Source of the DNA: Branchiostoma lanceolatum
Taxonomy: Eukaryota; Chordata; Leptocardii; Amphioxiformes; Branchiostomatidae
Direction: 5' to 3'
Length of the DNA: 64,000 bases
NCBI RefSeq assembly: GCF_035083965.1
Contig: NC_089722.1
Location: forward strand, 24,364,142 to 24,428,141
The notes under the pieces were generated by a model. The model ran no database searches, was not told where the DNA came from, and worked only from the letters and a program-made list of their open reading frames with translations. A program made the translations under genes and the position numbers. Of the stretch, positions 11,590-62,100 are shown piece after piece (the stretch's first letter is position 1; the number at the start of each line of letters is the position of its first letter).

Positions 11590-14500
11590 ATGACTGACTG
11601 CAGTGATTTGGACAGGTCGGTTGGTGTTTGTTTGTCCTTGCTACTGGTGTCATGATTGGCACTTGTTTTTACTTTAAGGTATTTAGCACCATGTTCTGAT
11701 GTCCCACAACCAGTTTAGATACATGTGTTAGTCACAAGATGCTTGGGCTATATGTTTAAAGGTTAAAGGGATGACAGAAACATGTATGGTTTCCATGATC
11801 ACAAGACAAAAGGTCAAACACAGTTTCAGGATTATTAACTGGCACACATTTTTACAAGTGACTGTTATACTTATAGGATAAAAAGAAGATCCATAACATT
11901 TACGCCAGCTTACAATGTTACGTAGCATGTTTTGAACCTGAGGCCAGTCTGGACAGACACATTCTATCCATGTCAGGTTGTGTATGTGTGAGGGTGTGTT
12001 TCCCATCTATAGCCATGGCACCTGGGTGTCAGATGGGCTGGGAAGTATTTTGAGGGGGTACCAGTCAATGACCTGAGGTAACTGCAGGTCGTGTCTACTG
12101 CAGAGGCTTGCAGGAGTCAGCATGCTAAAGAAGTGGTGAAAAACATGGGGTATAAGACCCCGTTCTTACAAAGTTTTGTGAATAGAGATTCACCCATGCA
12201 CGGGATTGATCCCGATTCACGACTCCTGGTGTGTACGGGGCCTTGCTTGTAAAAGGAATATTTGTTGAAAATAGAAAATGGGACAGATTTGGTCAAAGTG
12301 CACGAGGTAATCGTGTAGACCATGTTCATACCAGATTTTGCAAGTCAGGATTCACCCAGGCACAGGATTGATCCTGGTTCAGGGCTCCTGTCATGAACGG
12401 GGCCTTGCTTGTAATGGAATATTTGTTGAAAATAGAAAATGGAACAAATTTGGTCAGAGTGAACGTGGTAATCGTGAGGGCCATTTGAAATGTGCAAATG
12501 GTCAAAATGGTATTACTTTTGATTGACTTCATTCTGACACCGAGGTAAATTTGCCCAGAAGAAGTTTTCGGCTTTGTTACATTTGCTTCACTCACTCTGA
12601 TTGCCAACATCACAGTCAATCTGCCAAATTCTTCGATCATCACACAATTTTGTAAGACTTCTATTTAACAGCCTTACAACTAAGAAGTTACATTTGTATT
12701 TACAATGAGAAAAGTGCATCTAAATTGGCTTGTATAACACCATGCCAGGTTACACCAAACCTGCGCCTTCAATTACCCAGCATGCCCTTTCACCCACCTC
12801 TGACAACCACAGTGTAGAATTGAATTTTGTGGCGTCATTTACTGTAATGGTTTTAACGATTTCTTTTCAATCTTTCAAACCGCTAACAGACAAATAGAGC
12901 AGCTTCGGCGCTGCGAAATCATCAAGGAGGGAGAGGTAAAGGCTCTCTGTGGTAAAGCAAGGTAACTATGTTTCTTCTATTTTTTCTGTACTAGTTAACT
13001 GACATTTTAAGGTGTCCACTATCTGTGTACATGCACTATCTGGTTTTACATGAATGAAACTGTTGTATTTTGTTTGTTTATATTATTGTTTTGTAACATT
13101 GTTTTGATTTGTTATACTTGTATCCTGTAACATTTCGAGTATTATCAACATCACGTATATCCTATAATATTTTGATTATTGATTGATAGGAGAAAAAAAT
13201 CAATTAGATTGTTGAGTAACAACGTATTTCTGTTGAAACAAACAAGCCAAGTACAGTTCACAAATTGTCAGTACCAATGTACAAGCATTGTTCTGATGGT
13301 TGAAGTTATCTGAATCTCTCATTTCACAGGGAAATCCTTATAGAAGAAAGTAATGTCCAAAGGGTAGACTCACCAGTTACTGTGTGTGGGGACATCCACG
13401 GGCAGTTCTATGATCTTAAGGAACTTTTCAAGGTAAGAAATGTAGCAAGAAACATCCTTGAGTCAAAAAATTTAATTAAAACTATTCCTCAGTCTCACAC
13501 CAAAATTTTAGACGAGGCCAGGTTACTATTATTGTCACTGTTGACACCGAGATCTCTGTATCTTAAGCCTTTGGAAGACATAGGTTTATGTCTTTCTCTA
13601 ATCCATTTGATGAGCTTGTCCATGCAAGTCAGATCGCTAGAGAAAGTAGAGAAATGCAGAACACAAAGCTACGGTCACTGTCTACCGTCAGTAACTGTAG
13701 TAACTGTAGAAGAGATCCCTGCAACAGATTATGGACACCAAATAATTTGTACCATTGAAAAAGTCTCCTTTTGTGCCAAAGTATAATAGTCAAGGCGGTA
13801 GGTTCAAAAATTTGCTCCGATGATGATAGAAACCCAGGGCTCAAAATTCGTTTTTGGAAATAAGCGCACTGGTGCACCTAACTTAAAGATTTAGTTGCAC
13901 AGAAAGAATTTTTGGGTGCACAACATAAAGTAAAATGTCTGCAAAACTTCTGATTATAAACCTTACTCCTGTCTAGTGCAGCTTATTCTGCACATTAAGT
14001 GCACAGTTACAGGCATACAGAAAAAGATGTGTGAATTGTCTGTAAGATTTACCAAGGGACATGTTTTTGTTTATTCCCAGGTTGGGGGGGATGTGCCAGA
14101 CACTAACTACCTGTTCATGGGGGATTTTGTAGACAGAGGGTTTTACAGTGTGGAGACATTCCTGTTGCTACTTGCTCTTAAGGTAAGTTCTGATTTTTTC
14201 TTTGCTTTGGCTTAAACATATACTGTAAGTCTACTTAGATCCGCAGGGCCTAAAATCCGCGGTTTCGGGCAAATGGAAAATCCGCGGTGGTTCTAAATTC
14301 GCGCTGGGCGATGAGTAGAAAAAACAGCAACTGAATACTGCCATCAGAAAATGCTTGTTCAATTTTTTAAAATAAAAAATGTTACGAAGGTCGCTACAAA
14401 ACTGCTTCAAAATCGTCATAAAATGCGGTCTACGCCGAAACTGTGACGGGGACTTCCCGCCTTGTGATCACGTGAAATCTTGCAGTCAACCAATCAGAGC

Positions 14501-17500
14501 ACAGTTTTTCTGACTCGAACCAATCAGTGCTTAGAACAGCGGTAAACATGAGTAAACAAAGATGGCGGCCCGGCCCTGCCGCTAGCGCGCCGTATTTTGA
14601 AGTAAAATCACGGCGTAAAATACGAGTCATCTACGCTACGTAAGCAGAATTTTCACGGGAAAAAAAATAAAGGAATAGATTCTCCACCGAATACGACCAC
14701 AAATGGCGGCAAATGGCGGCAAATCACAGCGTAGGGACTCACATGCTCGGGTGAAAATCTTGTTTTTCTTTACGTATTTTTGCTCGCTTTCTTGAAAAAC
14801 AGGTTTTTAATGAGATCAACGTATGTCAGAGGCACCGATATCGATTGTTTGCAAGCATAACAATAGCAAGAAACAAAAGAGTGTGATTGTACAACGGTAG
14901 ACGGCGTCCCCAAGCCCGTAACAACAATGCAAAGCCCAAATTGTGGCGTGTATGTCGATAATTATTTTCTGATTTCTCGGTAAATTACTACTGTATATGT
15001 GTAGCGGTCGGGAGTAGCGACGCCGCTCGGCCAAACTTCTGCGAATCATATGTAATATCACATGTTTACACGTATGTACTGTGTAAAAGTTTGTCATGTT
15101 TTACACAATCGCATGCATTGTTTATGTGTCGCTTTTCCCTGAAGTCGAGCTCACTCGTAAATGTGGGGAGGGGGGCAAAAGTATGATAAACATATCCGCG
15201 GGGAAAATTGATTCGCGGCGCAGAGGTCGCCGCGGATTCCGCGGATCTAGTTATACCGCGGATCTAAGTAGACTTACAGTAATACCTTTAGCGCACTGAA
15301 GTAGCCGTTTGGCACCCAATTCCCTATCGTTTACAGAGTTAGGCAGCAGGGAGAAGGTTAAGCTTGGAAGCACTCCAGTTCTCACTATGAAACCTTATAG
15401 TAGAAAAAAAGGACTTTTGAAACTCTGTCAAGGGGTTTTATCTCAACCAGATATCAGTATCATAAGCCTTTGGAGGACATTGGTCTGTGTCTTTCTCTAA
15501 TCCATTTGATGAGCTTGTCCATGCAAGTCAGATCGCTAGAGAAAGTAGAGAAATGCAGGACACAAAGCTACGGTCACTGTCTACCGTCAGTAACTGTAGA
15601 AGAGATCCCTGCAACAAATAGTAATGCGACTTTATAGTTCTAGTTGTATTTGATTGGTGCAGTTTCTAAAATTCCCACGCATTTGCCGGTAGGTTCGTTA
15701 TCCAGACCGTATTACGCTGATCAGAGGCAACCACGAGAGTCGACAGATCACTCAGGTGTATGGGTTCTACGACGAGTGCCTGAGGAAGTACGGGTCCATC
15801 ACGGTCTGGAGATACTGCACCGAGATCTTCGACTACCTCAGCTTGTCAGCCATTATAGACGGAAAGGTGGGCTGGTTAATGAACTCAAGGTTACATTGTG
15901 GCTCAAACAATAGCATATTCACCATTACAGCCTCCAATATATTATGATACTGTGCAATGTACTTCATGTAGTGCTTACACAAGGGGGTGGGCAGGTAGAA
16001 TTTTGCGGTGGTTTTACGTTTGTGGTAAAGAGGTCACTGCAAAAGCAGCGAAAATTTCACAATTTACAGTAATCCTTATTTAAGTAGGGGGTCCAAAGTA
16101 AGACCATTAGGCAATCAGGACTTTGACAGATTAGTAACTATAGGGGGTATCTCACTGGACTTTGCCGAATTGCGCCAAAGTGCAAAAGGCATATGCAAGT
16201 GCTGCAATCCAGCACTAATCGGCATCAGTCTGCCCCAATTTGTCACCTGAAATTGCAAATTTTCAAAAATTTTTAAAGATTTACAACTGGCAAAATAGCG
16301 CAAATGGGCGACAAATCTTAATCATATTTTAATTATTTCTAGTTCAGTGCCAACACCTCGATTTCCAATATAGTTACCTTGTATTTGATCCAGAGCAGTG
16401 CGATAGTGCTTTTGACATAGGGCTATGTGAATTTGGACTAAAAGTTTGTTTCTTCATGTTTCAGATTTTCTGTGTACACGGAGGCCTGTCCCCATCCATC
16501 CAGACATTAGACCAGGTAAGTAATGCCACAATCACAATACATGAACTTTTCACAAACGATGATTTCGACAAAGAAGATAAATTCGACGGAGAGAAAAAGA
16601 GATTCATGTCTTTCTCTAATCCATTTGATGAGCTTGTCCATGCAAGTCAGATCGCTAGAGAAAGTAGAAAAATGCAGGACACAAAGCTACGGTCGCTGTC
16701 TACCATCAGTAGCTGTAGAAGAGATCCCTGCAACAGATTATAGACATCAAATCGGTAGGGAGAAAATGGAGTGTACGAGGTGGTTTTAAGTTCACGTTTG
16801 AGACAATAGTAGCTCTACAGAAATACAGGCAGAAATGTTTGCGGTGGTTTTAAGTTCGTGGTGAAGAGCTTACCGCAAAAACAAAACCACTTTGAACATT
16901 TCTGCATTTACAGTATATCGAACCATAACAAGCTGGAAAAGTCTTTGAACTCCAACAAACTGTCTTGTTTCTGTAAGTATAAGATGATTTTTTATGAGAA
17001 CAAGGAACTCACAGTGCTTCATATGACATTCTTTAATATACCTGTTGATTGAAGATTGATGATTCTTAACTCTCTCCATTTTCCCCCACAGATTCGCACA
17101 ATAGATAGAAAACAAGAGGTTCCCCACGACGGTCCCATGTGTGACTTGCTGTGGTCCGACCCAGAGGATACCCAGGGGTGGGGGGTCAGCCCCAGGGGGG
17201 CGGGGTACCTGTTTGGCAGCGACGTGGTCGCGCAGTTTAACGCCGCTAACAACATTGACATGATCTGTCGAGCGCATCAGCTGGTGATGGAAGGGTACAA
17301 GTGGCACTTTAACGAGACGGTCCTGACGGTCTGGTCAGCTCCTAACTACTGCTATAGGTGAGGAACTTTCTGTCACAACCTTCATATACATGTACATACT
17401 GCTTCTTTGTAATTGGATTTTCCCTTAAGTGACCAAGGATCAAGACAAGCTTTTTGTGTTTATATTATCTCTTGATATCTCTATACTGTAAAATTCATGT

Positions 17501-37386: not shown

Positions 37387-39660
37387 CTATGGTTTCCACG
37401 TGATAACCCTAACAGCAATAGTCGCAGCTTTCACCACTGCCTGACTTTCATCCTCCATCCTTTTCTTGATAAGATCTACATGCTTCAGTAGCTCCTTCCT
37501 CCCCTCAGGAGCCTCGGACAAGGTGGTCAGGGCTTTCAGACTATTCAGCCTCACTTCACTGTTCTTGTCTTCTACGAGTTCTACAAGATGGGGGATTGCT
37601 CCGGCCTCCAGGGCCAGGTACTTCCCCTGGGTCGTTATGGTGATGGTCGCTATGGCGCCAGCCGCCATCGATCGGACGTACGTGTCTCCATCCTTCAGTA
37701 GCCCCACCAATGGCGGCAGGGCTTTCACCTCACAGGCCTTGTTCTTGCCATCAAGCGGGACGCTGAGGTCCATGATGTCGCGCGCCGCCTTGGCGCGGAT
37801 GATGGCCTGGTTGTGGCCAAGGAGCTCGGTGAAGACTTCCATCGCCCCGGCGACGAGTGCGTGCATGGTTTCCTCGCGGAGGCAGAAGTGTAACGTGTCA
37901 AGGATGAGTTCCTTGATCTCGTTAAGCTCGTCACGCAGTTTTCCGACAAGCTTGGGGACAAGTTGTGCCTCCACTACACCTGCAGCACCTGTAGAAAAAC
38001 AATGAAAACGCGAAAAAAATAACTTAATTTGAGCACCAAGAATTATTTTCAGCAGATACTGTAGGCAACCTTTTACTAAGCAGTGTCACTCTGTAACAAT
38101 GTAATACTTCAAAGGTACTTGTAAAAGGTCAACTGAGAAATTGGTGAATAGAAGAAACATGAAAGTGTACTTATGTAGCTATGAAATATTGATGAACTAA
38201 AGATAGGGACAATAGCTTCCTGTCCAATGGCATCAACCCTTGAGGTGTTAACTGAAGCATGTCCAAGAGAAGGAAAATTAGATATATGACTGCTTGGGAC
38301 AAACTTGGTAACAACTACTATAGTCTAAACAAAAAAGTGGCATTGCGGTGGTGCAATGGCAGGGTGTTTGGCCCAGAACCTAGAGGTCCTGGGTTCAAAT
38401 TTGGGGTCCCCTGATTTGTATTGTTGACGTTGTGCCCTTGGGAAAAGCACTAAAAAAAAACCCAAAAAAAACACGACTTTCCCCACTTCACTCAGGTGAA
38501 AAATAAGTACCTAGCTTTGGTTAGGGATGTCCCTCGGATAGGACTTTACATGGAGGTCTCGTGTTTGAGGAGGTACAAACCTGTACAAACCTGGTGTGTT
38601 ACATCATTAGGTGGTTTAATGGGTATGCAATACAAACAAAATACATGTAATACAATGATGGGAAAAGTAAGTTACCATAGGGGATCTCTGACATCATCTC
38701 CATGGCCATGTGTGCATTCTTCCTGGCAAGGTCCACGCTATCGTCAAACAGTTTGGACAGAGGCACAATAATGCCATAGTCCAGGAAGGCATCCCTGCCC
38801 TTGTTGTGAGTGGCAATAACATACAGCACCTGGTAAGGACGGAAGACTTAAGGTTAGACATTGATAAAAAAAGTACATGTAGTCTAATAAGTAAGAGTAA
38901 GATTTACATTGCCTTCAGGTTGAGTTGACCATGTGATAACCTCAGTCTTAACATTTAAAGTGAGACTTCACCATTTCCTGGCATTAAAATGTTGATCTTG
39001 CAAATATTAGTCATGTTATATACTATTAAATTGCATTGAAATTATGTTTGAATACTGCATAGTTTGAAATCTTGTCAGTACAATAAATTACATTTACACT
39101 TAAACTTTTGTTTTCCAGAGGAATAGTTTAAAGTCTTACTTCTGTAGTCTTGTGTCTGACAGTCGGATCCTTGTCACTCAAAAGCGCCTTAAGACTCTCA
39201 GCCACACCCACCTTTAGGGAAGCAAAATAGATTCATTGATTGGAAATGCATCAGCAATACAACCAATACGATGATACAAGATTGCTATCAACTAAAAATG
39301 TTCCCCATTTAAAGGGAACAGCAAAGCTGGTATCTTAACATGAAGAAAAATGACATGAACAAAAGTAGCCACCACAGCAACAAATTATGACATCAGTCAT
39401 CACAACAGCAACTTATGATAAGTCACACAAAAAGTTTCAAGACGAAAACAGAACACAGAACGAACCCTCAACGCATCTGCAATGTGTTCCGGGTCGTGCA
39501 GGTAGTCACAGAGAGTCATCAAGGCCCGCTGGCGGGTGATCAGCTCTTTATCGTTCAGCTCCCGGTTGAGTCTGGGGAGGGCCCGGTCTCCGTACGCCAG
39601 CGGAGCCTTGGTCGGGTCGATGTCCGGGGGAAGCTTCTGCGAGATCACCGTCTTAGCCAT
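37387..39660 (-). CDS. RSPH14: Radial spoke head 14 homolog, armadillo-repeat axonemal protein, complete (340 aa)
   Basis: Component associated with radial spokes of motile cilia and flagella (also called RTDR1). Minus-strand exons: 39466-39660, 39140-39211, 38676-38829, 37387-37988 (1023 nt, phase-consistent). LPPDIDPTKAPLAYGDRALP near the start, RQRALMTLCDYLHDPE, KTTEVLYVIATHNKGRDAF, AKAARDIMDLSVP, LLKDGDTYVRSMAAGA, GKYLALEAGAIPHLVEL, LNSLKALTTLSEAPEGRK and the end ITWKP follow the vertebrate protein in order, giving a helical ARM-repeat fold throughout. Length is close to human (348). The ATG at 39660 is used; upstream in-frame TTG is not needed. The exon 1 donor AGG|GTTCGT is atypical. 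An intron holds a SINE. Confidence 0.94.
38336..38644 (+). mobile_element. tRNA-derived SINE, copy 1 (RSPH14 intron 3)
   Basis: A-box-like GTGGTGCAATGGCAGGG and B-box-like GGTTCAAAT spaced as in tRNA, then GTGCCCTTGGGAAAAGCAC, GGAGGTCTCGTGTTTGAG and AACCTGGTGTGTTAC. The 3' tail is AATACAAACAAAA. It is colinear with 60411-60774 and is shortened internally. It lies opposite to RSPH14 transcription. Confidence 0.85.
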
Positions 39661-40090
39661 AGCTGAAGTTGTACTCAATCACTAGAGAATGAAGTTTAGC
39701 GTTTATGGGTACGTGGTGGTGAAAGCACTGGATTTGAAACGTTCCTGACGAAAGTTCGCGAATCGATACTTGAGGAAAGTCAGACCGCAACCCTTTGTTT
39801 AACTTGTTGTCAGGGCAACCACATCTAAACGCTACAAACAAAATAGGCTAATCAAACGATAGAATAGAAAAGAATATTTCTAGTAATAAATAAACATCAT
39901 TCTCAATTTTTTTATGACATTATGAGTGTAATTGAAAGAAGCATGTACTCGATAAAGTTGGTTTTGTTGACTTAAAGGTTTCCGTTTGTATCGAGTTTTG
40001 TTAGTTTTGTTGCTGTTATCCACTCTCGTTCACATCTCGCGAGACTAAAGTGAGGCGAGATTTGAGACAAGATGGCGGGCCGTTTCGAAG

Positions 40091-40166
40091 TGTTACGCGC
40101 CGAAATGAGTCCTTCGAACCCTCCATACAATCAGTCGTAGTACAGTCACAATATGTTGAATCAGGC
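40091..40166 (+). repeat. 76-bp repeat, inverted copy at 49789-49864
   Basis: TGTTACGCGCCGAAATGAGT through CAATCAGTCGTAGTACAG to TTGAATCAGGC. The reverse complement occurs 9.6 kb away with only a few mismatches. The two copies bracket the whole satellite region. Confidence 0.9.
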
Positions 40167-42499
40167 CATATAATATGTCCTCGTAACGATGACGGCCCAG
40201 AGAACCCCGTGTAGTTCACAAAATAACTAAGACTTCTACTATATTGACGGGTTACCACGTCAAAGTCTGCCCATAACTAAGATTTTCAGAGGTCTCCGCC
40301 ATTGTTTTTTGGCTGAAATACGCACCACATGGGGGTTTCGTGGCACCCGGTTACAGGGTGAGGCGCATCTGTTTCCGGGTCACACTGGTTCATAATAGAA
40401 ACGACTTGACAGTTTACCGGGGATACTTGGCACAAATATGTGGGACTGTTTGGACGACAGTAATGCTTTTTCTGGCCAGCTGCGTGTCCAAGAAGGCAAG
40501 AGGTTTGTGTAGACATTGTTCACAGTGTAAACATTTCTGTAACGTAACGTTAACGTTAGAACGTTTAGTTAGAACGTTAGAGTTTCGATACGATACATAT
40601 GGGGAATCATACCATCTCTACGTACACATGTACACCTGTTGGGTGTTAGGACGAGTAATAATATGCTGTAATTCTTTTCGTTGCTATGTTTGCGGCATTT
40701 ATGGAGAAAAAAAAAAAACACGTCACGCTCCTTAGTTGGGGAGGGGAGGGGGGCGATAAAATGTTCTCGGTAGAGCCAGCCATGCCATGTGTAAGCTCGG
40801 GTGATTGTTGGTTTAAAATTCTATATGGTCAGGAGGCACTGAACTTGTAAATACACTAACATGGATGATATGCATGGTGTAGTTTGTATTTTTGAGAATG
40901 CTTCACTAACCATATAACTATAATATAAAACATAATTTTGTGTAATAATCTGTGTGTATATATTTTATTTGTTAGTTAATCCATGCGAAGAAACATAATT
41001 TTTACTACTTTTAGCCTGCAACTAGTGTGTCCGTGCACAATTTTGATTCAAAGGTTTTCATTTGAATACTAGTAACTTACCTTTATACAAATACATGTAC
41101 ATTCTTCGGGAAGGGAGACACTGGCAATTGTTGTAATGCCCATCTGAATAAATTTTTGTTGTTGAATACATTTTCAGAATGGGCATTTCAGGCCCTTTTC
41201 ACTGTCCTTGATGCATCTACATACCCTGTCACCATAGCTGCCTGTTGATGTCTCGTGTGGGTAACACAAGGGTGCATCATATACTTGTGCATGTATTTTC
41301 TTGAACAACCAACAGAATTGAACAGAATACATAAATGAATCAATGTTTTATGACTATGCTTCTTTCTGAAATTAATGAAAACAGATATTAGTATGTTGAT
41401 TTCCAGCCCTGCTGGATATTGATAATCCTATCAACCGTTCATTGCATGTTACGTCTTCATACCTGATATATGTTACTCTCATGTTGCTTTATTACATTGT
41501 AGATAGATTTGATATGTCCCGATTTATGTATTTGCAGAGAATTGTATTAACTGTTGTAAAAATGATAGACTCCTCATATAGCAAAGTGCGACTCTGTATT
41601 TGAGAAAATGCGGATCCAACAGTCTGTGCTGAACTCAGTAGATGATGCCGTTTCTTTGAAAACAATATGAATTTGATTATGTGTATAGAATACTAGATTG
41701 TCCTTTTGCTGCTTATTAGTTATACTACTCTATCTCACTACTGCTAGATACTAAATGAAAAATTACCCAGCTCTGTACATACCTGACGTGTGATTTTCCT
41801 TGTACATAGTAAGATGAGTGTGGTTTCTGAACTTGATCAATTTGTATATCTATGCCAGCTACTATGTGCCTCCAAGGATTGCTGTGCACAGAATCTTCTA
41901 ATCCTGACAGTACACTGTTTACAGAGTGTAGGTTCATGTAGAATATATAGTGAGTGCAGCAAGGCCATATAAACATTTTGCAGAATGCTTGCATCCTTCC
42001 TTTGTCCGGTGACGCAGGTTCCTACATAAGTCCCTTTCTTACCATAACTCATCAGTTTGTATTCCAATACCTTCCTCAATCACTTTGTGAAATAGACATG
42101 GATTCATCATTATTAGTATAGATCTTTTAGTTTTAGTGTAGTGGTGAAGACTGGATACAAATTGTAGATTCCATCTCAAGCTTCTGTGCAGAAGGCTACA
42201 ATACCTTTTCCCTTTGTGTAATGAAGAAATTATTTCATTTTTAACCTGCCTGTACGTACATGTAGAAAAGAAGATGAAGAATTTCCTATGTGCCGTAAGT
42301 TGTACTATGCAGGAAGTAGGAATTTGCAGAAAATATAGTCTATGCAATAGTCAGTAACAGTAGCATTGTGCAATAAAAAAGTATTTGTAAGAAGAATTTG
42401 GTGTTATTTCTATGTGCCTAAAGTTGAATTTTGAGAAAAGTCAGTGACTATAATCTAAAATTACAGGAAATATATTTGTATAGATTAGAGCAAGAGGAC

Positions 42500-42537
42500 C
42501 TGAGTGAGTGAGTGAGTGAGTGAGTGAGTGAGAGTGA
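42500..42537 (+). repeat. (GAGT)n microsatellite
   Basis: About nine GAGT units, slightly interrupted at the right end. Confidence 0.95.
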
Positions 42538-44104
42538 ATATACAAATGTAACTGATAAACATGCATAAAGAATGCTGGAAATGGTCAAATGCTCGACCAG
42601 TAAAACAAACATCTGAGTCACACATATGTATATTGTTTTCACTGTCAAATTCACAGTAGGTACAAAATGGAATTGCATTCTTCATATAAGCACAATTGTC
42701 TGTGGCAGGAGGAGAAAGGAGTTGCTCCACAGGATTGTAGAATTTGGCTCTGGCCGTTTTATTGGCCAACACAGGTTTCAAATACCAGGGTCTTTAAACA
42801 TTTGAAGTTGACTCTGATATTGCCCAATTGGTTATTGACATTCATCAGGTGAGGAAGATGATAAATCTATCCATATGTTGTATTATTCTGATATACTTTA
42901 AATGCATTTAATTTCACAGGTAGGGAGAAAAGGGAGTGTTCGCGGTAGTTTTAAGTTTGCAATGGAAACAATATTAGCGCTACAGTCATCGCGGGCAAAA
43001 GATTTCTCAGATTCCCACTGGCATTGGCAGCACACTCTCTTTCGATATCTTAATTCTACCCAGTGTCTACCCATTAAAATGACACACCTTTGGGACTACT
43101 GTTTTTACCTCTGTTGATTCGAATGACACCATTGAAACCACTTAATTTTCTCTGTGTGTGTCATTCCAATGACAGATGACACAGTTGGAAACTCAGCTTT
43201 CAGGGTGTGTCATTCCGTTGACATAGGGGGGAACTCAGCTATACCAAGGGTGTGTCATTCCAATGACATAGGGGAAACCCAGCTATACCAATGGTGTGTC
43301 ATTTCAATAACATAGAGGAACCTCGGCTAAACCAAGGATGTGTCATTCCAATGGCGGGAAACAGCTATAACAAAAGTGTGCCATTCCAATGTCATTGGGA
43401 GAAACATAGCCGTGCCATTGGTGTATCATTCCAATGATATAGGGTGAAAACAAGGTATTCCAAGGCTGTGTCAGTCGAATGACACAGGGTGAAATATAGG
43501 TGTGATGAGGGTGTTTTATTCCAATGACACATGGTGAAATTCATGTATTCATGTGTCGTTTGAATGACATAGGGTTAAATTCAGCTGTTCCAAGGGCTTT
43601 CCAATGACAGAAGGTGCAATTTAGAAGTTCCAACTGTGTGTCATTCCAAAGACATAGTGTGCTCCAAGGGTGTTTCTTTCCAATAAGGCAGGAATGTTTT
43701 TAGAATTTTTCATTTCATTTACTTTACCAGCGAACACATGTGCACTCAAGTCTCTGGTCCTCTTTTTCAGGCTATAGCTATAGCTACTTTCGTGCCTTTA
43801 ACATATTGCCTTAAAATAGTTACTAGCGTGTTCCTTTCCACGTGCATTCAGTGGCTCGAAACCCGCCTCCACTATCAGGCTATCGGTAACAGTTAGGTAC
43901 GCGTTCTGCCGATGATGATCCTTGCTGCTCGGTATAGCAACCTGTTCAGTTATGGCAATTTAGTCATGTTGCAATTAATCAGCGTTGGCAACCAAGCAGT
44001 GATACAATTGTCCATGTATGGGCATATCATGCACAAACGGTTTCACTTTGGCACGGCATTATGCTTAAAGGCCAGCAAGGAGCTTCTTTGTAATCTTCTT
44101 GATA

Positions 44105-44425
44105 TGAGTTCCACACAGTAGAGTCAAGAGTAACGCCGATGTACGTGAAGGAGTCTATCCGTTCGAAGTTGCTTACTCCATACTCCATATGTTATAGAGA
44201 CAGTCTTTCCCATATGTCGCAATTTCTGAGGCAGACCAAAAACCGTAGATTGATTTGTCCGGATGTCATTCAGTTTGATAACTTAATTTCTGTAAACCAG
44301 TTAGCTGCCCTTCTCATCTCCTCAGATACAGCTTCCTAATAATCACTTCTCGAGATTACCGAATGAACAGTGTCAAATGCATTTCTCAGATCGAGGAAAA
44401 GGACGGCCGTGCACGCTCTTACGGG
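44105..44425 (-). pseudogene. Decayed CR1/L2-like LINE reverse-transcriptase fragment
   Basis: Read on the minus strand, the region gives FLDLRNAFDTVHS (RT motif), then ANWFTEIKLS, and IDSFTYIGVTLDS, in the order of CR1/L2-type reverse transcriptases, with several stop codons. It interrupts the left satellite array of unit 1. Confidence 0.7.
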
Positions 44426-45307
44426 TACTGCATGTCAACTTGATGTCCTCCACTACCTTCTAAACGGCTGTACCTGTGCTGTGGTGTTTTTTTTTTTAAT
44501 TCTTTGGTGGGCCATGAGCTGACCACCACTGTTCATAAAGTGCTCTCGGATTTGTATATGGGTGAAATTCTTGCCATTTTCCAGTCACAATCCAATTTAT
44601 CTACAGTACTCCAAGGCTGTGTGAATCCAATGTCATTCTAATGACACAGGGTGAAATTCAGTGCTTCCAAGGGTTTGTCATTCCATGACACTGTGTGGAA
44701 TTTAGGTATCCTGAGGCTGTGCCATTCCGATCGGTGAAATGTTTGTATTCCAAGGGTGTGTCATTCCTGTGGCATAGGCGGAAACTCAGCTATTACAAAG
44801 GTGTGTCATTCCAATAACATAGGGGGAAACTGAGTTATCAGAAGGGTGCTGTGTCATTCCAATAGCATACGGATAAATCATGAAGTGTGTCATTTCAAAG
44901 GTGGAAAATCAACACTACCAAGGGTGTGTCATTCCATTGAAATAGGGGGGAAATCAAGTATACCAGGGATTTGTCATTACAGTGACATAGGGGGAAACTC
45001 GGCTATCACAAGGGTGTGTCATTCCTCGGGTCGTGTCAGTCCAATTTTAAAGAGACTAAGCTATCCTGAGGGTATGTCATTTTCTGTGTATGTGTATTTT
45101 TCTGCTTTTTAGCGGCGTCGCAAAATGACGACAGGTGAAGGCCCTATATGTACAGCGCAACGGTATAGCACAGCTACTGACGACTTTGACAGCACAGATA
45201 GATTAGAATATTAGGTGACTGTTACGTTAACGCGTTGAGAAAACTCCCCTTTCACCAGGTTTTAGAGAGAAAAGCGCTCCTAATGTAGTCTGTGTATCAG
45301 CCTTTTC

Positions 45308-45370
45308 AGCTTTCGTCCGCTCTCCAAGCTCTGCTACCGACCAAAAAAACTTGGGGAGCGGACAAAGGCT
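45308..45370. repeat. Short palindrome in the foldback spacer
   Basis: AGCTTTCGTCCGCTCTCCAAG is inverted as CTTGGGGAGCGGACAAAGGC with a ~20-bp loop. Confidence 0.8.
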
Positions 45371-46659
45371 AAGAATGCTGGTACTCAGCTTACTCAAAAT
45401 GACGGTGCACGTAGCACGTAGGAATTTACCTGGAAAGCTATGTGCAGCAGCATATATGCCAGGCCATCTCGCCCTGTGCCAGAATATGGTGAAGTCGCTT
45501 TTTTATATCTCAAATATAAAACATCGCATTTCCTTTAAACTTGGCTGCCGGATTAAAGACGGCTTACTCAGTTATCATAGGAACTCCCAAAAGAGGACCG
45601 TCAATGGCCGTAGTGATACTAACCGTTAAATCTCTTAGATAAAAGCATAGATTTCTTGCACAACGTTCAGATGATAGATCAGATTCCCCCTATGCCATTG
45701 TGATGACATACCCTTGTTAAAGCTGAGTTTCGCCTATGTCATCAGAATGACAAACATTTGGTATTGCTGAGTTTCCCCCTAAATAATTGGAATGACTCAC
45801 ACTTGCTATAGCCGAGTTTCCCCTATACTATCGGAGTGGCACACACATGGCACAGCTAAGTTTCTCCCTATGTCATTGCAATGACACACCCTTGGTATAG
45901 CTGAGTCTTTGCCTATATCATTAGAATGACACACCCTTGGCATAGCTGGATTTCCCCTATGTCATTGAAATGACACACCCTTTGTATAGCTGAGTTTTCC
46001 CCTATGTCATTGTAATGATATAGCCCAGTTCCCCTTATGTCATTGGAATGACAAACTCTTTGTATAGCTGAGTTTTCTCCTATGTCATTGTAATGACACA
46101 GCCTTGGTTTTTGCCAATGTTGTGTCAAGGACAATGACTTGGTGATCTGGATTACAAGTTTTAGATTAGATGTAACGTTAAGTTTCTCAACGATTCTGGT
46201 CAAAATACATAATGGTAGATCTTCTAAGGAGAATAACTCAACAAAAGGTACAACAGATTTTCATGTTATTTGGTACGCAGGTAGGTTGGACATAGACGTA
46301 CACACTGAAGTGCAAATTATGCAAATTGGGACTGAATTTGCAGAAGTAATGAAGAAAATCTATACCTCCATTCTAGGCATGTTAGTAGCAAAACTGGGTC
46401 ACACCCGTCACGTTAGTAGCAAACCTGGGTCACTTCTCCAGGGGCACGACAGGTGGTGGTCATACCATTGAGGGTTATAGAATGACATTGGTAGGGAACT
46501 GGTTTCCAAGAAAACCACATATGAGAACCAAACAAGCACCCACTGGCACAAAAAAGCACAACTTGCAACGGCAAGAACAATTCACTATGGCAAAAAAGAC
46601 ACCATTTAATTTTCATGAAGATTTCGCGTCGTAAGACTCTTATTAACGCATTGGGAAAT

Positions 46660-49340
46660 GAAGCTATACCAAGGATGTGTCATAATTCTATGACATCGGG
46701 AGAAACTGAACTATCAGAAGGGTGTGTCATTTCAAAGACATAGGGGGAAACTCAACTATACCAAGGGTGTGTCATTCCAATAATATAGGGGGAAACTGAG
46801 CTATCAGAAGGGTGCTTTGTCATTCCAATTGCATACGGAAGAAATCATGAAGTGGTCATTCTAATGACATACGTGGAAAATCAACAATACCAAGGGTGTG
46901 TCATTCCATCTCAAGACAAGCGATGGTACTGCCTTGGAGGAGGTAAAGGACTTTAAGTACCTGGGATCTAGGATGGAAAGCACAGAAAAGGACATAGCAG
47001 CAAGAAAAGCAGCAGCCTGGCAGGCTTGTAACAAGCTGAAGAAGGTTTGGAGATCAAACCTCTCTCGCAAGCTGAAAGTGAGGCTTTTCCTCTCGACGGT
47101 TGAAGCAGTCCTCTTGTATGGATGTGAGGCGTGGACAATCACTTCCAAGCTAGAAAAGCAGCTGGATGGATGCTACACGAGGCTCATGAGATCAGCACTA
47201 AACATCCACTGGTCACAACACATTACCAACAAGGACCTGTATGCTGGACTACCAAAACTGTCTGACAAGATCAGGACAAGGGGGTTAAAGTTCGCTGGAC
47301 ACTGCCTCAGAAGCAAAGAAGAAGTGGCTGACCTGGTTCTCTGGACTCCCAGGCATGGGAAAAGGAGGCCTGGAAGACCCGCAGCAACATACATTGACAC
47401 CCTGAAGAAAGACACTGGCCTTGAAGTTGATAGTCTGCTCCAAGCGATGAGGGATAGAACCACATGGACTGCCATCACGACTCGAGACCGTCCAGTCTCG
47501 ACATAAGCAAGCAAGTAAGCAAGTCATTCCATCGACATAGGGAGAAACTCAGCTATACCAAGGGTGTGTCATTCCAATGACATAGGGGAAAACTCAGCTA
47601 TATCAATGGTTTGTCATTCCTCAGGTCAAGACCAAGCTTTCATGAGAGTATGTCATTCTCTGTGTCGTGACACAAACGAAATTTGTATTATGTTTCTGCC
47701 TTTGAGCGGCGTCGCAAAATGACGACAGGTGAAGTCCCTATATACTTAAGCAGCGCAACGGTACCTGTAGTAATACTAGCCGTTTAATCTCTTAGATTGC
47801 AGCATAGACTCCTGATACACCCTTGGAAGAACACACCCTTGTTATAGCTGGATTTCCGCCTATGTCATTGGAACGACACACACTTTTGCTTGTTATAGCC
47901 GAGTTTCCACATATGTCTTTGGAAAGTTCACCCTTGGCACAGCTGAGTTTCCCCCTATGTCATTGGAATGACACACCCCTGGCAAAGCTAAGTTCTTGCC
48001 TATGTCATTGGAATGACGCACCCTTGGCACAGCTGAGTTTCCCCCTATGTCATGAGAATGACAGACCCTTGGTTAGCTGGATTTCCCCCTATGTCATGAG
48101 AATGACACACCCTTGGTATAGCTAAGTTTCCCCCTAAGTCATTGGAATGACACACCCTTGGCAAAGCTGAGTTCTTCTCTATGTCATTGGAATGTCATTC
48201 CCTTGTTATAGCTGAGTTTTCACCTATGTCATTGGAAAGCACACCCTTGGCACAGCTGATTTCCCCCCTAAGTCATTGGAATGACACACCCTTGGCAAAG
48301 CTGAGTTCTTCCCTATGTCATTGGAATGACATTCCCTTGTTATAGCTGAGTTTTCACCTATGTCATTGGAAAGCACACCCTTGGCACAGCTGATTTTCCC
48401 CCTATGTCATTGCAATGACACACCCTTGGTTAGCTGGATTTCCCCCTATGTCATTGGAATGACACATCCTTGGTTAGCTGGATTTCCCCCTATGCCATGA
48501 GAATGACACACCCTTGGTATAGCTGAGTTTCCCCTTGTCATCGGAATAACACATCCTTAGTATAGCTGGATTACCCCCGATGTCATCGGAATGACACACC
48601 ATCGGAGTCTTTGCCTTATCATTGGAATGACGTACCCATGACACAGCTCAGATTTCCCCATATGTCATTGGAATGAAAGAACCTTGGTATAACTGGATAT
48701 GCCCCTAAGTCATTGGAATGACACACCCTTGGTATAGCCGGACTTCCCCTATGTCATTGGAATGACACACCCTTGGTATAGCTGAGTTTTTGCCTATGTC
48801 ATTGGAATGACGCACCCGTGGTATACTAGTATCTGATTTTTTTGCCTACATTATTGGAATGACACACCTATGGCACAGCTTAGTTTCCCAATATGTCATT
48901 GGAATGACACTCCCTTAGTATAGCTTAGTTTCTTCCGATGTCATTGGAATGAGACACAATTGGTATAGCTGAGTTTCTCTTGTGTCATTAAAATGACACA
49001 CCCTTAGGTCATCATAGAAGGCACAGTACACGATTCATTTTCTACTTTATCCAGGCTACACATGGTTGTTACCGTCCCAGAGTGACACAGACTTACGATT
49101 AGGGCACACTCATATTACTGGAAGGACAGAATTACACGCCCTTGGGATACCTCAATTGCTCCCTATGTCTATGATGATCCATCAAGTGTCAAGGACAATG
49201 ATTTGGTGATCTGGATTATAAGTTTTGAATAACATGTAACGCTATTAGAGGGAGAATACAAAAGAATGGGGGTCAAAAACTCACTCAAAGTCCTTTATCT
49301 CAAGGATTCTGGTCAAAATGCATAATGGTAAATCTTTAAT
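46660..49340. mobile_element. Foldback-like structure, unit 2: mirrored satellite arrays
   Basis: Forward arrays at 46660-46900 and 47530-47640, a spacer at about 47640-47815 homologous to that of unit 1 (GCGGCGTCGCAAAATGACGA, CTTAGATTGCAGCATAGA), a long reversed array at 47815-49015, then GTGTCAAGGACAATGATTTG and GATTCTGGTCAAAATGCATA, the same tail as unit 1. The repeated order implies a ~3 kb segmental duplication. Confidence 0.65.
46911..47522 (+). mobile_element. 5'-truncated RTE-like non-LTR retrotransposon with target-site duplication
   Basis: A 202-codon open frame (46898-47506, reading in from the array) encodes the C-terminal part of a reverse transcriptase: KDFKYLGSRMEST, VEAVLLYGCEAWTITSK, CYTRLMRSALNI, KFAGHCLRS, GKRRPGRPAATYIDTLKKD. 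The 3' end has GCAAGCAAGTAAGCAA, a short simple-repeat tail. The 11-bp GTCATTCCATC stands on both sides (46900-46910 and 47523-47533), and removing the insert restores a normal satellite unit. The ORF is intact, so the insertion looks young. Confidence 0.85.
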
Positions 49341-49788
49341 ATGTTTATATATGCTTCTAGTGAGTTCTACGCTTCATATTCATTTCGGCCAAACTTTCCT
49401 TATAGTGTTAGTTAACATTAGTTTCGCGATTAGAATGACTCGATTTGAAGTAGGTTTCATTTTGGTAATGAGTTAACCTTTGTTGACATATACAAAATTC
49501 ACATACGGATCTCCAAACTGAAGGTACAATATCGGCGATCACTCGGCTGAATGTGCTTGGTGTTCTGTTTGTTTGGCTTTGGGTGCTTCCTTTGACCCGG
49601 AAGTAGACTGGATCATGATATACATCGGTCGTCTGGAAACCCCCATGCAGACCGTAAAACCTCGCCAAAATGAGTACTTAGAAGGTCAACTTTGAAGGAA
49701 CAAATTTCGTGTTCAAATACTTTTTGAATTCTCAACTGACCTACACGAGGTTGTCAGACGTGTTGAGATCACAGGGACACATAAACCA

Positions 49789-49864
49789 GCCTGATTCAAC
49801 GTATCGTGACTGTACTACGACTGATTGTATGGAGGGTTCGAAGGACTCATTTCGGCGCGTAACA
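49789..49864 (-). repeat. Inverted partner of the 76-bp repeat at 40091
   Basis: Reverse complement of 40091-40166, about 280 bp before the STK36 start codon. Confidence 0.9.
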
Positions 49865-50145
49865 GAAGTCCAGTAATTATCTCCAGAAAATTGCTGAAAA
49901 TTCGTTTCACAAAGATATATACATAAAAAATGTTTAAAGTAACAAAGAGTTAATAGTATAAAGAATCAAGCCAGTCATTGTGATCTCCCATTCTACAAAG
50001 GTATGGTGATATATTCAAGGTTATATTTGGTTGTTTACACCTGTGAGCTTGTCGGCATTTTTCTCTCGATAATAATTTCGGCACTCTTTCATCTGGGAAT
50101 ATGTTTCACCTTTTGCAGAAATCTACCTTAGACGATTGAAAAGTT

Positions 50146-53100
50146 ATGGATCGTTACCATGTCTTGGAGTGCATCGGGGAGGGGTCTTTTGGGAAAGTCT
50201 TCAAGGGGAGAAAGAAGTACACTGGACAGGTGAGTAAAATTTGGTGGTAAGATAATCAATCGAGGCTACTGACAGGATGTTCCTGTCCATTGATTTTTTT
50301 TGCACTATTGACAGGACGTTCCTTTGATACGGATTGTGAAAACACCTCATAATCCTGTCAACCCTAACCCTAACTTTGAGGATAATGCTGTAAAATAATG
50401 CATAAATGTGAATGATAAAAAAGGGATGTTGTGACCCAGGATCGAACCCATTACCTTCGCATGCAAGCCTAGTCAGTCCAATCACTGTGCTCGGGGAGGT
50501 CGGATGTATGTCGTGTTGGTAACGGAATAATACCAGATTTCTGTCGGTTTTTCCCTGCAGCTTTTACCGATGTTGAACCCGATACAGATCCAGAAATCAG
50601 GCTAAATCAATGGAGTTCGCCCCTTGCTTTCCCGATAGCCTTCCTATACATTACCGACGAATGTCGGGCATGTATCGGTTTTCACGCAAAAGGTCACTCG
50701 CGGTCATGATGGGTGTCAGGTCCCGATTATTACGATATTGTAGCAATATCTCGTCGGACGAGTTAGACATTTTTTTCCATTGTTTTCTAATTACCGTAAA
50801 TTTTCATTGATATATTTTCGTCAAAAGGCAAACCAGGTCATTGAATTATTACCGTGTTGGTAGATAATTTTGTTTGTTTGTTTGGGGTCCTTTTTTTAAA
50901 ACTCCGCCGCTATTGTTATTCGTGGATAGTTGACCACTACATTATGCTGTTTATAGCTACATCTCATGTATTCCATATTCGTCTTTTCAGATTCGTGACA
51001 ACCGGCGGGCCAGTTATACCGGCCATGCTTGAGGATGGGGACGGACTTTCCGGACACATCGATTCATTTTAATAAAAAGACAATTGTTCATTAATTTATT
51101 CGTTTTGTTCCCGTTCAGTTTGCTTTCGTATTGATCTGTTTGTTTGTTTGTTTGCTTCGGTGTTGGTTTTTTTCCAACTGTTTGTTTCATGTCACTAACA
51201 CTAACACCTGACGTTCCCCGGAACTAACAAGTTCGGAAAGCTAACATGAACTCACATAAAATTTTCACAAATTATATTCTATTAACAAAATAACAGTAAT
51301 CACACTTGACACGGTCACAATAGATATGTAAAATCTGTTAAAAGCACGCTTACCATAGTCACATTAGATATATTATAATCTTGTTGGCGATCATCGTGCA
51401 AATACTAAGCTAAAACATTAACAGATATAGAGATCATGGCAATCAATGTAACCTTTTGGCTCATTGTTGCATCAATTTTAGAGTTCTGGGGAAGAAGACT
51501 CGTGCCTCTTCGTACGGCTCAACGGTACTTTGTTGGCTGAAGTTTGTCTTAGATCGTACTTAGTGTCTCCGGATTTCACAAGGAAGTGCCGGCAGGGGTG
51601 TGTTTCGTCCGCCACCACCCTACCGAACTCACGCACGGATGCCTCGCGTCTCCGCTTCTCCAGGGTTGGCAGCTGGTCGGAGGGGATTCCAATAATCCTG
51701 CAGCAGGTTTTCTGTACCTTCTCGACCTCGTCAGACAGCCCACGAGGCAGTCCTCCCCACACCGGTGAGCCGTACTCTAACACAGGTCGAATTAATGTTG
51801 TGTAGATCTGAAGGAACTTGAAGTTGGTCCACATCAGTTCAAGCATCGAGACGGATTAACCACCATCGGCTGCATTTTTCCGGACCACGGTAATTTAGTA
51901 CGCTGTATGTGAACAACAGAAGACATACTGAAATAATATGATAATGTAAATTGCTGAAATAAATCAGGAAATACAATCAAACTACGAAATGAAAGTTGCA
52001 AACATTAAGAGGGATAACGAACTTTGTCGATGCAACTCAGTTGTCCAGCATCCGTAACTTTCGTCTTGCCCGTATAAATTTCTTGTCACCGACGGCAAAC
52101 GAAGGACTACTGAGAAACGAATGACTACTGAGAAGAAAAGTATTAGTACTCCTAGATGGTAACCGGGGTGTTATGATGGTCATATCAATGAGGTTTTATC
52201 AAACATTCCATTACTTTTACTGAATCTCGCACTGGATAAGCGACTTTATTTGTAACGTTCAAAACATGCTGCGACTTGACTAGTGACTACGGGATTCGGA
52301 ATTATATTGTCAATTTATTTTCATGTAACGAATATGATTATGGAATATTGAAATATTCCTCCCAGTTTTACTGCTGATTCTTGCCACAGTTCAACCAAAC
52401 ACTACGTAGCGCAAAAATCAAAAGTACAGCGATTTGGGCCATTAGGAGTTGACGGCTCCACGAACAATTAAAAAAGAACGTTTGTTCACAAACTGTTGGG
52501 ATGTTTTCTAGTTTCAATAAAAATGCATCGCCATTGTTTCCAATTGTAAGTAACAACCAATTTTTGTTTTCTTTTCCAGTGTCCCAACCAGGCTAGGAAA
52601 GATATCTGATGATGGCTCACGTGCTTTGTTAGCGTTGGCAAAGACGCCGTCAGAACAAAACGACGTGTCAATTAGTAGAAGTGCAAAGACAACACCCAGA
52701 GACCTTCATCAAGGAACAGAGGTTGATTTAAAAAAATAAAGAATAACAAAAATTTAAACATGATAATATAAACATAAGATGATGAAAGATAAAGAATAAA
52801 TTAAAGTAATGTTGACTGTAACAGAGAAAAGTAAAACATAAAAATGGATCGTTGGGCTCGAACCTGCACATATTGCCTGCTTCGGACTGATGGACAACAA
52901 CACTACCAGGTGAGCTATCAACGCTGGTTACAATCACGCTCGTTATTTTACGTATATGATATGGGCACTTGTCGTCTGTTAAAATGAAATCGCGTCAATT
53001 CTTTATATTATCACTTTGTTAGCGAACGACGACCAACTAATATTTATTAATGAAACGAAATGAGTGACATGTTAAAATAGAATTGAAGAAAACAAACAGA

Positions 53101-59100: not shown

Positions 59101-62100
59101 GAGTACCCCAACAAAGATTCCACGTGTTGCACCTGCTAACCCTGCATTGGGGGCAAAGGTGAAAGGTCAACCACAACCAGAGGACGACTGGGAAACCGCT
59201 AGCAAGGGCAAGCCTATCACCCCCAGGTCTGTTTTTTTCTGCACAAACTTTTTTGTTATTGGAAACCATCATTTTAGCAACATTTTACACATTACAAACA
59301 TAACTGAAATCACTTTCACTGTATGCATATACATACATGGCCTGCCATGGTCTTTTTATCAAGATTATCTAGTATTATGTGAGAAAATAAACAACAGATA
59401 TGAAGACTGTTTTCTTGTCTGTTAGGTTCAGTTTTTCCAGTAATCACAAATTTGTCGACTGTAGACTTATCATTGTCTGCCTTGGCTCCCAACGTCACTA
59501 ATGTTTGAAGTATAGTCTGTCACAGCCCTAACTTAACACCAGGAACATATTGCTATTACATGGAGTAGTCCTGAATATTTCCTATGTCCCAACAGACCAG
59601 ACCGGATCAGCCATGACTATGCCAGGGAGGAGGACATTGCTGCACAGAAGGCGGCAGCAGCAGCTAAGGAGAAGGACAAGAAGGCAAAAAAGAGCTTTGA
59701 AAATGTCAACTTAGAGAGTGAGGTGTGATACCATTCTTCATCTGTTTAAAAGTGTTTTTTATTTACTTCAATTCACCACAACGCAATGCCCGTTTAGAGC
59801 CCCTCAGATGTTTTGGGTTACACTTACTGGATTTTGATGACAACTGTATGCTCACGTTTGACTTGAAAAGTTTTAGGTTGTACCTACCAGGGAAGCAGTC
59901 ACGAGGAGCTTGCTCCATTAAGATATACAATGTAGTTCTACAAAAGAAGTTTTAGTGTGGAACTTCCTCCTGAGATGTGAACTATGGAAGTTTAAGTAAG
60001 GCTGATTTGCTTCTGTGGTTTTATTCAATAATCACAATATATCAAATTGAAAAGTTGTTAGTATAATAGTACATGTACAGAAGAGAAGGCCCGGGAAGCC
60101 CGGCTGCAACAGAACTGATGAACTCATGTAGACTTGCCCTACTCTTTCGAGTGGCTGTCAACACATGTACATGTACTTTAAGATCTGTATCTAGTCTAGT
60201 ACGTTAAGGTTGACCATGACTTTGCTAGGAGCTGGACAGTGATGATGAGTGGCAGCAGTTCATCGAGGCGACTGAGCCATCCAACATGCAGCTGACTGCG
60301 CCCATGACCCTGCTGCAGGACGAGCACTTCGCCTCCAGGATCTCTGCACGACTGCAGGCATCAGGACAACAGGTGGGGTTCCTCTTGTACCTTTTGTTCA
60401 TAAATGTGCTGTTGCAGTGGCATAATGGCAGTGTTTGACCCAGAACCTAGAGGTCTTGGGTTCGAATCCGGGGTCTTCTCACTTGTCCTGTTGATGTTAT
60501 ACCCTTGGGAAAGGCACTTTACATGAATTTCCTCACTTCACTCACAGGTAAAAATGAGTATCTAGCTTTTGTTTGGGAAGTCCGTCTGATAGGACGCTAA
60601 ATGGAGGTCTCGTATTTGAGAGAGCCACACCTGTAGCACACCACACAAAGAGTGGAGTCCTTCCTAGTGTGGTTCAAATAAATCTATACGGGTATACAGA
60701 TTGTACTCTTCAGTATAAACCTGGTGTGTTACGCCGTGAGGCAGTTAACTTGGTATGCAATACAAACAAACAAATGTTATCCTGAAATATAAAAACAGAA
60801 AAGTTGACAGCTGAAATTATATAGCAACATCAATAAGGACAAAAAAGAAACTGATCACTAATAAAGGAATACAAAAATATCTGAAGTTACTCTTTTTCCT
60901 CTGGAACAGAAAATGTTTGCCAATATTAACTAATATGTTCCCTATCAGGTTCTGGAGGGTATGTTGGAGGGAGCTTCCAGACTCAGACCTGTCCTAAGAG
61001 TCATCTGTAACCTACTGGCCACTAAATGGTAGGTAATCAGTGTATAAAGATATGTTCTAAACATTCATATATGATGATGACGAGAATTGATGCGGATTTA
61101 TTATGATGCAAAATAGTTTTGTTTAACGCTAATGATAAGCTTCATTTGTACAACACAATATAGCTTGTCTTATTCAGCATCAGTGTGAATGTGAGTAACT
61201 TGTGAGTTTTTGTACACCCTCTTTAGTGACAATGTGCTGAAATAACATCAGTGTGAATGTGTAGTATCAGTGCAAACAGGAGTTAAGGTAATGTTTTTCC
61301 CTCCCAGTGACAACGAGCTGCTGTATAAGCTGTGTCAGCAGATGGAGGTTCCCTCCTACACCCTCCACCTTACTAAACAACTGCTGGAGAAAACAAACAT
61401 CAAAAAGGTACTTCAATTTGTGACTTTGTTTTTCATAATAACTTACTGTGCTACAAGGTTTCAATGCAATGTGAGATTCAGCAGTCTTGAATTCTATTGC
61501 CAAGAATCCAAGACCTTGTTTCTTGATATATCTTAAAGAAAATTCATGTCTTTTGCAGCTTCCATGGTGTCTTCAGGTTCTTGGTGATCTGGTCAGCCTT
61601 CTCACTGCATACTTCTCCAGTGACTTCAACATCTCAGAAATCAAGGGGACAAAAAGGTACTCTAGTTGTAACTTCTAACTTAGATATGATCTCCATGCAG
61701 ATCTATCAGAGGCAAGGCAGTTTCAAAAGGGCCAACTAGTATCCAAAGTTTGGTTGGCCCTTTTGATACTGCCTTGCCACGAATAGATCTGCTTGGAGAT
61801 TAACTAGATAACCTCTGTGCAGAATAAGTAAAATATAGACATTGTCATCTGTGCACTAATGTGTTTCAAGCCACACATGGATGATCCTTAAGTTAACTGG
61901 CACTTGTATGCCTTTGTGTATCTTGACTACTTGATATTTTTATACTACCTCTTGTATCAAATGATCTACTGTTACCTTGAACAAGACACATTAAACAAAA
62001 AATTTACAACATATCTATCTTTACTCTTCCCTGCAGCTTTGAAGTTTTTGAGAAATCAGCTCTGTCATTTGTGGAAATCTTACCTCTGGTCATCAAGGAA

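Follow-up and report, generated by a model that had tools for sequence, protein, structure and literature searches.

Within a 64-kb stretch of DNA (the window, the whole of what was analysed), the interval between two divergently transcribed genes holds two mirrored structures built from a 45-bp tandemly repeated unit. Each runs, from left to right, through a forward array, a spacer, a reverse array and a tail. On the left, a minus-strand exon at 37387-38085 matches radial spoke head 14 (RSPH14) of Branchiostoma floridae at 99% with 86% query coverage; the next match, among the best 120 of 211, is to Ptychodera flava at 76%. Because of this difference between the B. floridae match and the next one listed, the window is taken as lancelet (Branchiostoma) DNA, with B. 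floridae as the probable species. The RSPH14 start codon lies at 39660, where the minus-strand translation opens like the B. floridae protein. On the right, a kinase-like gene that we take to be STK36 starts at 50146 on the plus strand; both are presumably ciliary genes. The mirrored arrays fall between the two start codons and are intergenic.

Tandem Repeats Finder reported arrays of the 45-bp unit, in both orientations, between 43202 and 49005. When a profile of 49 units was searched across the window with nhmmer, it gave 72 matches at E ≤0.5, all in 43052-49169. When the E-value was fixed per window, 71 matches fell in 43000-49400 and none outside, and 20 first-order Markov-randomised windows together yielded seven, the best at E 0.073. 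These results bear out the first-pass annotation in its description of a unit arrayed in one orientation and, beyond a spacer, in the other; the region filled by units extends over 43072-49170. With up to two mismatches, the core of the unit, TGTCATTCCAATGACA, was matched 65 times at 49 distinct places, a palindrome being able to match both strands, against 0.04 expected. The core had been called palindromic, and it is a near-palindrome (7+2+7, with 7-bp arms around a CC centre); among 64 near-complete units, 16 have kept all seven pairs. Those 64 are the array pieces, out of 76, with no more than nine gapped columns; the other 12 were left out.

We number forward (F) and reverse (R) arrays by the structure to which they belong. 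The unit consensus is identical across 45 columns in F1, R1 and R2 and differs at one column in F2, which means that both orientations descend from one unit. The nearest relative of a unit shared its orientation in a proportion of 0.66, against 0.50 by chance (P 0.004), when the unit's own array was counted, and in 0.39, against 0.49 in permutations (P 0.96), when it was excluded. No other 16-column window of the unit is as well conserved as the palindrome (mean identity 0.908, against 0.905 for the runner-up), and columns 7-22 carry on average 1.48 bits of information compared with 1.16 elsewhere. A coding role was considered for the open 15-residue frame of the consensus and was rejected because indels break the frame in many units; a protein search with that frame gave no candidate. 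Exact searches found the unit in no prokaryote genome, and the unit, spacer and inverted-pair sequences in no viral contig, these prokaryotic and viral collections being little informative here.

The first structure opens with about 1.3 decayed reverse units (R0, 43072-43130, minus strand), which adjoin the forward array on the left; aligned locally to the reverse consensus, they score 44, a value reached by 0 of 300 shuffles (mean 12.6). Slightly further left, at 42919-42985, lies one copy of a short dispersed repeat whose other copy is at 16754-16820 (82% over 67 bp). Forward array 1 is seen by Tandem Repeats Finder and the unit profile in two plus-strand parts, an outer, strongly decayed one of about 12 units (F1a, 43153-43672) and an inner one that decays into the spacer (F1b, 44606-45094), between which lies a roughly 0.9-kb insert (approximately 43690-44600, minus strand). 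Spacer 1 (45095-45679) holds about 440 bp that spacer 2 is without, and is followed by R1 (45680-46112, minus strand; 10 units by the same two methods) and tail 1 (46122-46223). Six-frame translation of spacer 1 gave no Pfam match above the curated cut-off (best E 0.015). The part without a counterpart in spacer 2 contains an imperfect hairpin (45290-45388); when 45250-45420 was folded as DNA, z was -2.87 and 1 of 200 shuffles folded as well.

Some 430 bp of unmatched DNA (46223 to ~46655) leads to the second structure. Its plus-strand forward array, placed by the unit profile, likewise has an outer and an inner part (F2a, 46655-46910; F2b, 47523-47662), between which the 3' end of a long interspersed nuclear element (LINE; 46911-47522, plus strand) lies inside a unit. 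Spacer 2 (47663-47807), recognised by its BLAST homology to spacer 1, is a short form. R2 (47808-49010, minus strand) comprises some 26 units, among them higher-order duplications of three units (Tandem Repeats Finder score 1055; periods 45, 89 and 134). Within it the unit pairs R2.15/18, R2.16/19 and R2.14/17 are 100%, 96% and 93% identical, and R2 appears to have grown at least partly via three-unit blocks. Decayed reverse units at 49120-49172 (minus strand; local alignment score 42, which none of 300 shuffles, averaging 13.4, attained) prolong R2 toward tail 2 (49186-49336), which is homologous to tail 1 and longer in its middle. The initial claim that the same order occurs twice, spacer and tail included, is confirmed, the spacers and tails being homologous; it needs amending in that spacer 2 is missing the ~440 bp, the tails differ in length and the forward arrays are split by two inserts.

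Homology between the two structures is found in the spacers, where BLAST aligned 45053-45165 with 47629-47763 and 45610-45651 with 47767-47808, and in the tails, where it aligned 46122-46180 with 49186-49244 (59 columns) and 46185-46223 with 49298-49336 (39 columns). Identities of these four pieces are, in turn, 76%, 86%, 88% and 92% with gaps counted; summed over the pieces as BLAST chose them, 227 of 253 ungapped columns are identical, or about 90%. The forward arrays add a stretch of 193 columns in which 46718-46909 is 86% identical to 44752-44937. Between the forward arrays, two pairs of units are mutually nearest (F1b.05 with F2a.03, F1b.06 with F2a.04) and two are nearest in one direction (F1b.07 to F2a.05, F2b.02 to F1b.10), the members of each pair lying at corresponding positions from the spacer. 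A 29-bp segment, GCGGCGTCGCAAAATGACGACAGGTGAAG, is identical at 45112-45140 and 47706-47734, although elsewhere the alignable pieces of the two spacers diverge by some 10%. Beyond the two tails the flanking DNA does not match between copies (P 0.81), nor does the DNA left of F1 significantly match that left of F2 (P 0.08). Given that their spacers and tails are homologous, both mirrored structures descend from one, and the inverted state probably predates the block copying. Since the DNA past the tails is unmatched, the copied block ends near 46223 and 49336.

The LINE end is bracketed by two copies of GTCATTCCATC, an 11-bp target duplication (46900-46910 and 47523-47533), and its relatives with organism names include, among the best 120 of 161 matches, two proteins of Branchiostoma belcheri at 66% and 73%. 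When 120 LINE proteins were searched against the window by tblastn (E 0.001), all 120 match rows lay at 46-47 kb; because of this there is no sign that the insert at 43690-44600, which none of these proteins matched, belongs to the LINE's family. Read by eye in the three minus-strand frames, pieces of that insert resemble a frameshifted, decayed reverse transcriptase, but a Pfam search of the same frames, with X at stops, returned nothing up to E 1. Elsewhere in the window, a minus-strand open frame at 51478-51855 looks by eye like the terminus of another LINE reverse transcriptase; none of the 120 LINE proteins matched it.

Drosophila FB and sea-urchin TU elements are foldback elements with internally repetitive terminal inverted repeats (TIRs), and the first-pass annotation had proposed an element of this type. 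Part of that proposal stood: the locus has an outer domain, in the form of inverted arms made of tandem repeats, and a middle domain between them, in the form of the homologous spacers. Folded as RNA, the 637 nt of F2b, spacer 2 and inner R2 reach -238 kcal/mol compared with a mean of -164 kcal/mol for 20 shuffles (z -9.4), and because this segment folds so much better than its shuffles, the arms are predicted to be able to pair into a long, foldback-like hairpin. The foldback element Tetris is laid out as a flanking domain, an outer tandem-repeat domain, an inner domain (one of three that its arms may possess) and a middle domain, with target duplications of 8-10 bp (PMC4079207). The locus resembles Tetris and Galileo in its inverted tandem-repeat arms, variable copy number and middle domain without apparent coding, but differs in that neither a mirrored flanking or inner domain nor, in the edge zones searched, an 8-10 bp target duplication was found. 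Reverse complements of the tails did not match the DNA left of F1 or F2 (shuffle P 0.45, 0.98, 0.99 and 0.14), in a comparison for which the score of tail 1 against tail 2 served as control and was reached by 0 of 300 shuffles, and no inverted similarity linked the two edges of a spacer (P 0.89, 0.76 and 0.87). The edge zones share no word of at least 6 bp in the first copy and two 6-bp words, as in shuffles, in the second, the left ends not being exactly placeable. On the two sides of a spacer the units are not arranged in mirror order (permutation test on the best diagonal: F1/R1, P 0.64; F2/R2, P 0.14). The arms are at most putatively terminal. The foldback proposal is thus partly supported; we do not assign the locus to foldback-type transposons, and its mobility is unproven.

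Several other comparisons were made. The TIR-220 satellite of Drosophila virilis, whose arrays derive from the arms of a foldback element (PMC4079207), is alike in that a tandem unit was possibly seeded in inverted arms; it differs in that neither a seeding element nor a wider array is known for the lancelet unit, which in the window occurs at this locus only. KolobokP multimers (PMC9587614) are tandem monomers with direct repeats and hence no match. A Helitron-like right end, suspected by eye, was dropped when no consistent end motif appeared in both tails. There is no support for orientation switching at the palindromic core as a general mechanism, since no forward/reverse junction falls in a core; the one close junction (43130-43153) lies outside unit sequence.

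The region is enclosed by a 76-bp inverted pair, with its left copy at 40091-40166 (plus strand) and its right copy at 49789-49864 (minus strand). The two copies are 97.4% identical (2 differences in 76) and are the sole inverted pair to flank the region in the self-comparison of the window. Their outer ends read TGTTACGCGCC...GGCGCGTAACA, that is, TGT...ACA, and GAAG stands directly outside both, at 40087-40090 and 49865-49868. Among 20000 position pairs drawn at random, 0.57% had flank matches of 4-10 bp, a chance estimated after GAAG had been noticed. The interval 40091-49864, which is separated by 431 bp from the RSPH14 start codon and by 282 bp from that of the kinase, is a possible 9.8-kb transposon that the first-pass annotation had missed. 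If so, its 76-bp ends (2/76) look younger than the block copying inside it (~10%).

We tentatively favour the explanation that the locus is an old lancelet minisatellite that came to be mirrored about a unique spacer, after which the block was copied once locally. In such a history the 45-bp unit with its palindromic core would have been multiplied by slippage or unequal exchange, a step supported by the periods of 45, 89 and 134 bp and the near-identical three-unit blocks. One arm would have been turned to the opposite orientation, a state that is seen, via inversion or inverted duplication. The entire block of forward array, spacer, reverse array and tail would then have been copied beside itself, a step supported by the 86% stretch and by the homology of spacers and tails, and the LINE end and the decayed insert would have broken up the forward arrays. 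Local rearrangement, as opposed to movement, would be the most likely origin: spacer and tail pieces match in order, units show no mirror order and the edge zones hold no target duplication. Several observations pull the other way. Identity is lower in global alignments extending into array edges or past the tails (160/215 and 140/213 ungapped columns), and tests of unit order alone were non-significant (permutation P 0.32 for F1/F2 and 0.45 for R1/R2), so that it is the spacers, tails and 86% stretch that carry the case for copying. A tandem duplication of the structure, as first proposed, agrees with the homologous spacers and tails, but a simple one would join tail 1 to F2, and the ~430 bp of unmatched DNA between them calls for a separate insertion or a later insert. 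Finally, the enclosing 76-bp pair with its 4-bp direct repeat indicates that something mobile may be involved.

A serious rival, although we consider it rather doubtful, is that a non-autonomous foldback-type DNA transposon is present here in two decayed copies, with the arms as its internally repetitive TIRs, the spacer as middle domain and the tail as a flanking domain lost on the left, and that a transposase acting in trans moved it twice to neighbouring sites. Arms of internal tandem repeats around a middle piece and the strong predicted hairpin would fit such an element, as would the unmatched DNA beyond the two copies, which two insertions would give. Galileo and Tetris are reported to have arms of unequal repeat number and copies that are rearranged, and in Galileo each arm varies independently in its number of repeats (PMC3573991, PMC4079207). 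It is opposed by the failure to find mirrored flanking or inner domains or edge-zone target duplications, by arms that are not in mirror order and by a spacer 1 free of any recognisable coding trace. Compatible with the other readings, and in our view unlikely, is a single TIR-bounded insert of ~9.8 kb at 40091-49864, between RSPH14 and the kinase, of which the arrays would be cargo or sub-terminal repeats. What speaks for it is the near-identity and uniqueness of the 76-bp pair, together with the GAAG outside both ends; no transposase was seen in the scanned parts of the interior, two inverted copies of an ordinary short dispersed repeat would look alike, and the chance of the GAAG match was calculated only once the match had been noticed. 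The more specific version, in which a lancelet transposon of ~9.8 kb with 76-bp inverted repeats and 4-bp target duplications carried two nested foldback modules of the palindromic 45-bp unit as internal cargo, not as its ends, and inserted into the common upstream region of RSPH14 and the presumed STK36-like kinase, strikes us as quite improbable. An assembly artefact, with two haplotypes joined side by side, would draw on the high heterozygosity of lancelets (3.2-4.2%; PMC12500494), but we regard it as very unlikely: the copies differ by about 10% in their alignable spacer and tail pieces, their flanks are unmatched although a haplotype join should repeat them, and the LINE is in only one. 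Selection for a cluster of palindromic protein-binding sites or a source of hairpin RNA would account for the conservation of the palindrome and for arm changes whose pairing slightly exceeds that in shuffles (358 of 418 cells compared with a mean of 352.1, reached by 10 of 500; 4 double changes compared with 1.0, reached by 8 of 500). This excess is slight, and because the units are related by descent the signal is weak; with all seven pairs present in just 16 of 64 units, selection of this kind seems highly improbable.

Other repeats are scattered through the window. A separate direct minisatellite with a 41-bp unit in about seven copies lies at 528-830, near a gene that by eye we presume to be flotillin-like. 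Self-comparison of the window also revealed three direct copies of 130-180 bp with 89-96% identity (13550-13743, 15449-15619 and 16600-16752), within a gene that, by eye, we take to encode a PP4/PP6-type phosphatase; they possibly represent a further intragenic lancelet duplication. Self-complementary palindromes of 132 and ~112 bp at 8792-8923 and 61689-61800 resemble small inverted-repeat transposons, and a dispersed pair at 38330-38640 and 60399-60770 aligns in two pieces at 74% and 83% identity. At its gathering thresholds, Rfam has zero matches in the window.

The structure is real and unusual in its detail. Sequence words from the unit, spacer, tail and inverted pair had no occurrence in a literature text search, and the publications listed for amphioxus foldbacks, miniature inverted-repeat transposable elements, Branchiostoma inverted repeats, TU elements and chordate foldbacks held no recognisable match in their titles and abstract openings. 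A term search of the main text of a paper on the transposons of amphioxus (PMC5802833) returned neither 'foldback' nor 'minisatellite'. A close lancelet parallel is the 'mirage', a tandem duplication over an exon-intron boundary (PMC3087553, PMC3902484). Mirages, found in the Adh3, globin, troponin C and PGBD5 genes, are likewise lancelet tandem repeats with turnover of units; they differ in spanning an exon-intron boundary, whereas the arrays described here are intergenic and occur in both orientations.

How tandem repeats become mirrored, and whether foldbacks seed satellites or the reverse, is an open question, treated for Drosophila in PMC4079207. The lancelet locus suggests an order of events, in which the inverted state came before the block copying and the LINE is present in one copy only. 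Should the enclosing 76-bp pair prove real, it would in addition point to a large lancelet transposon beside two genes with a common upstream region.

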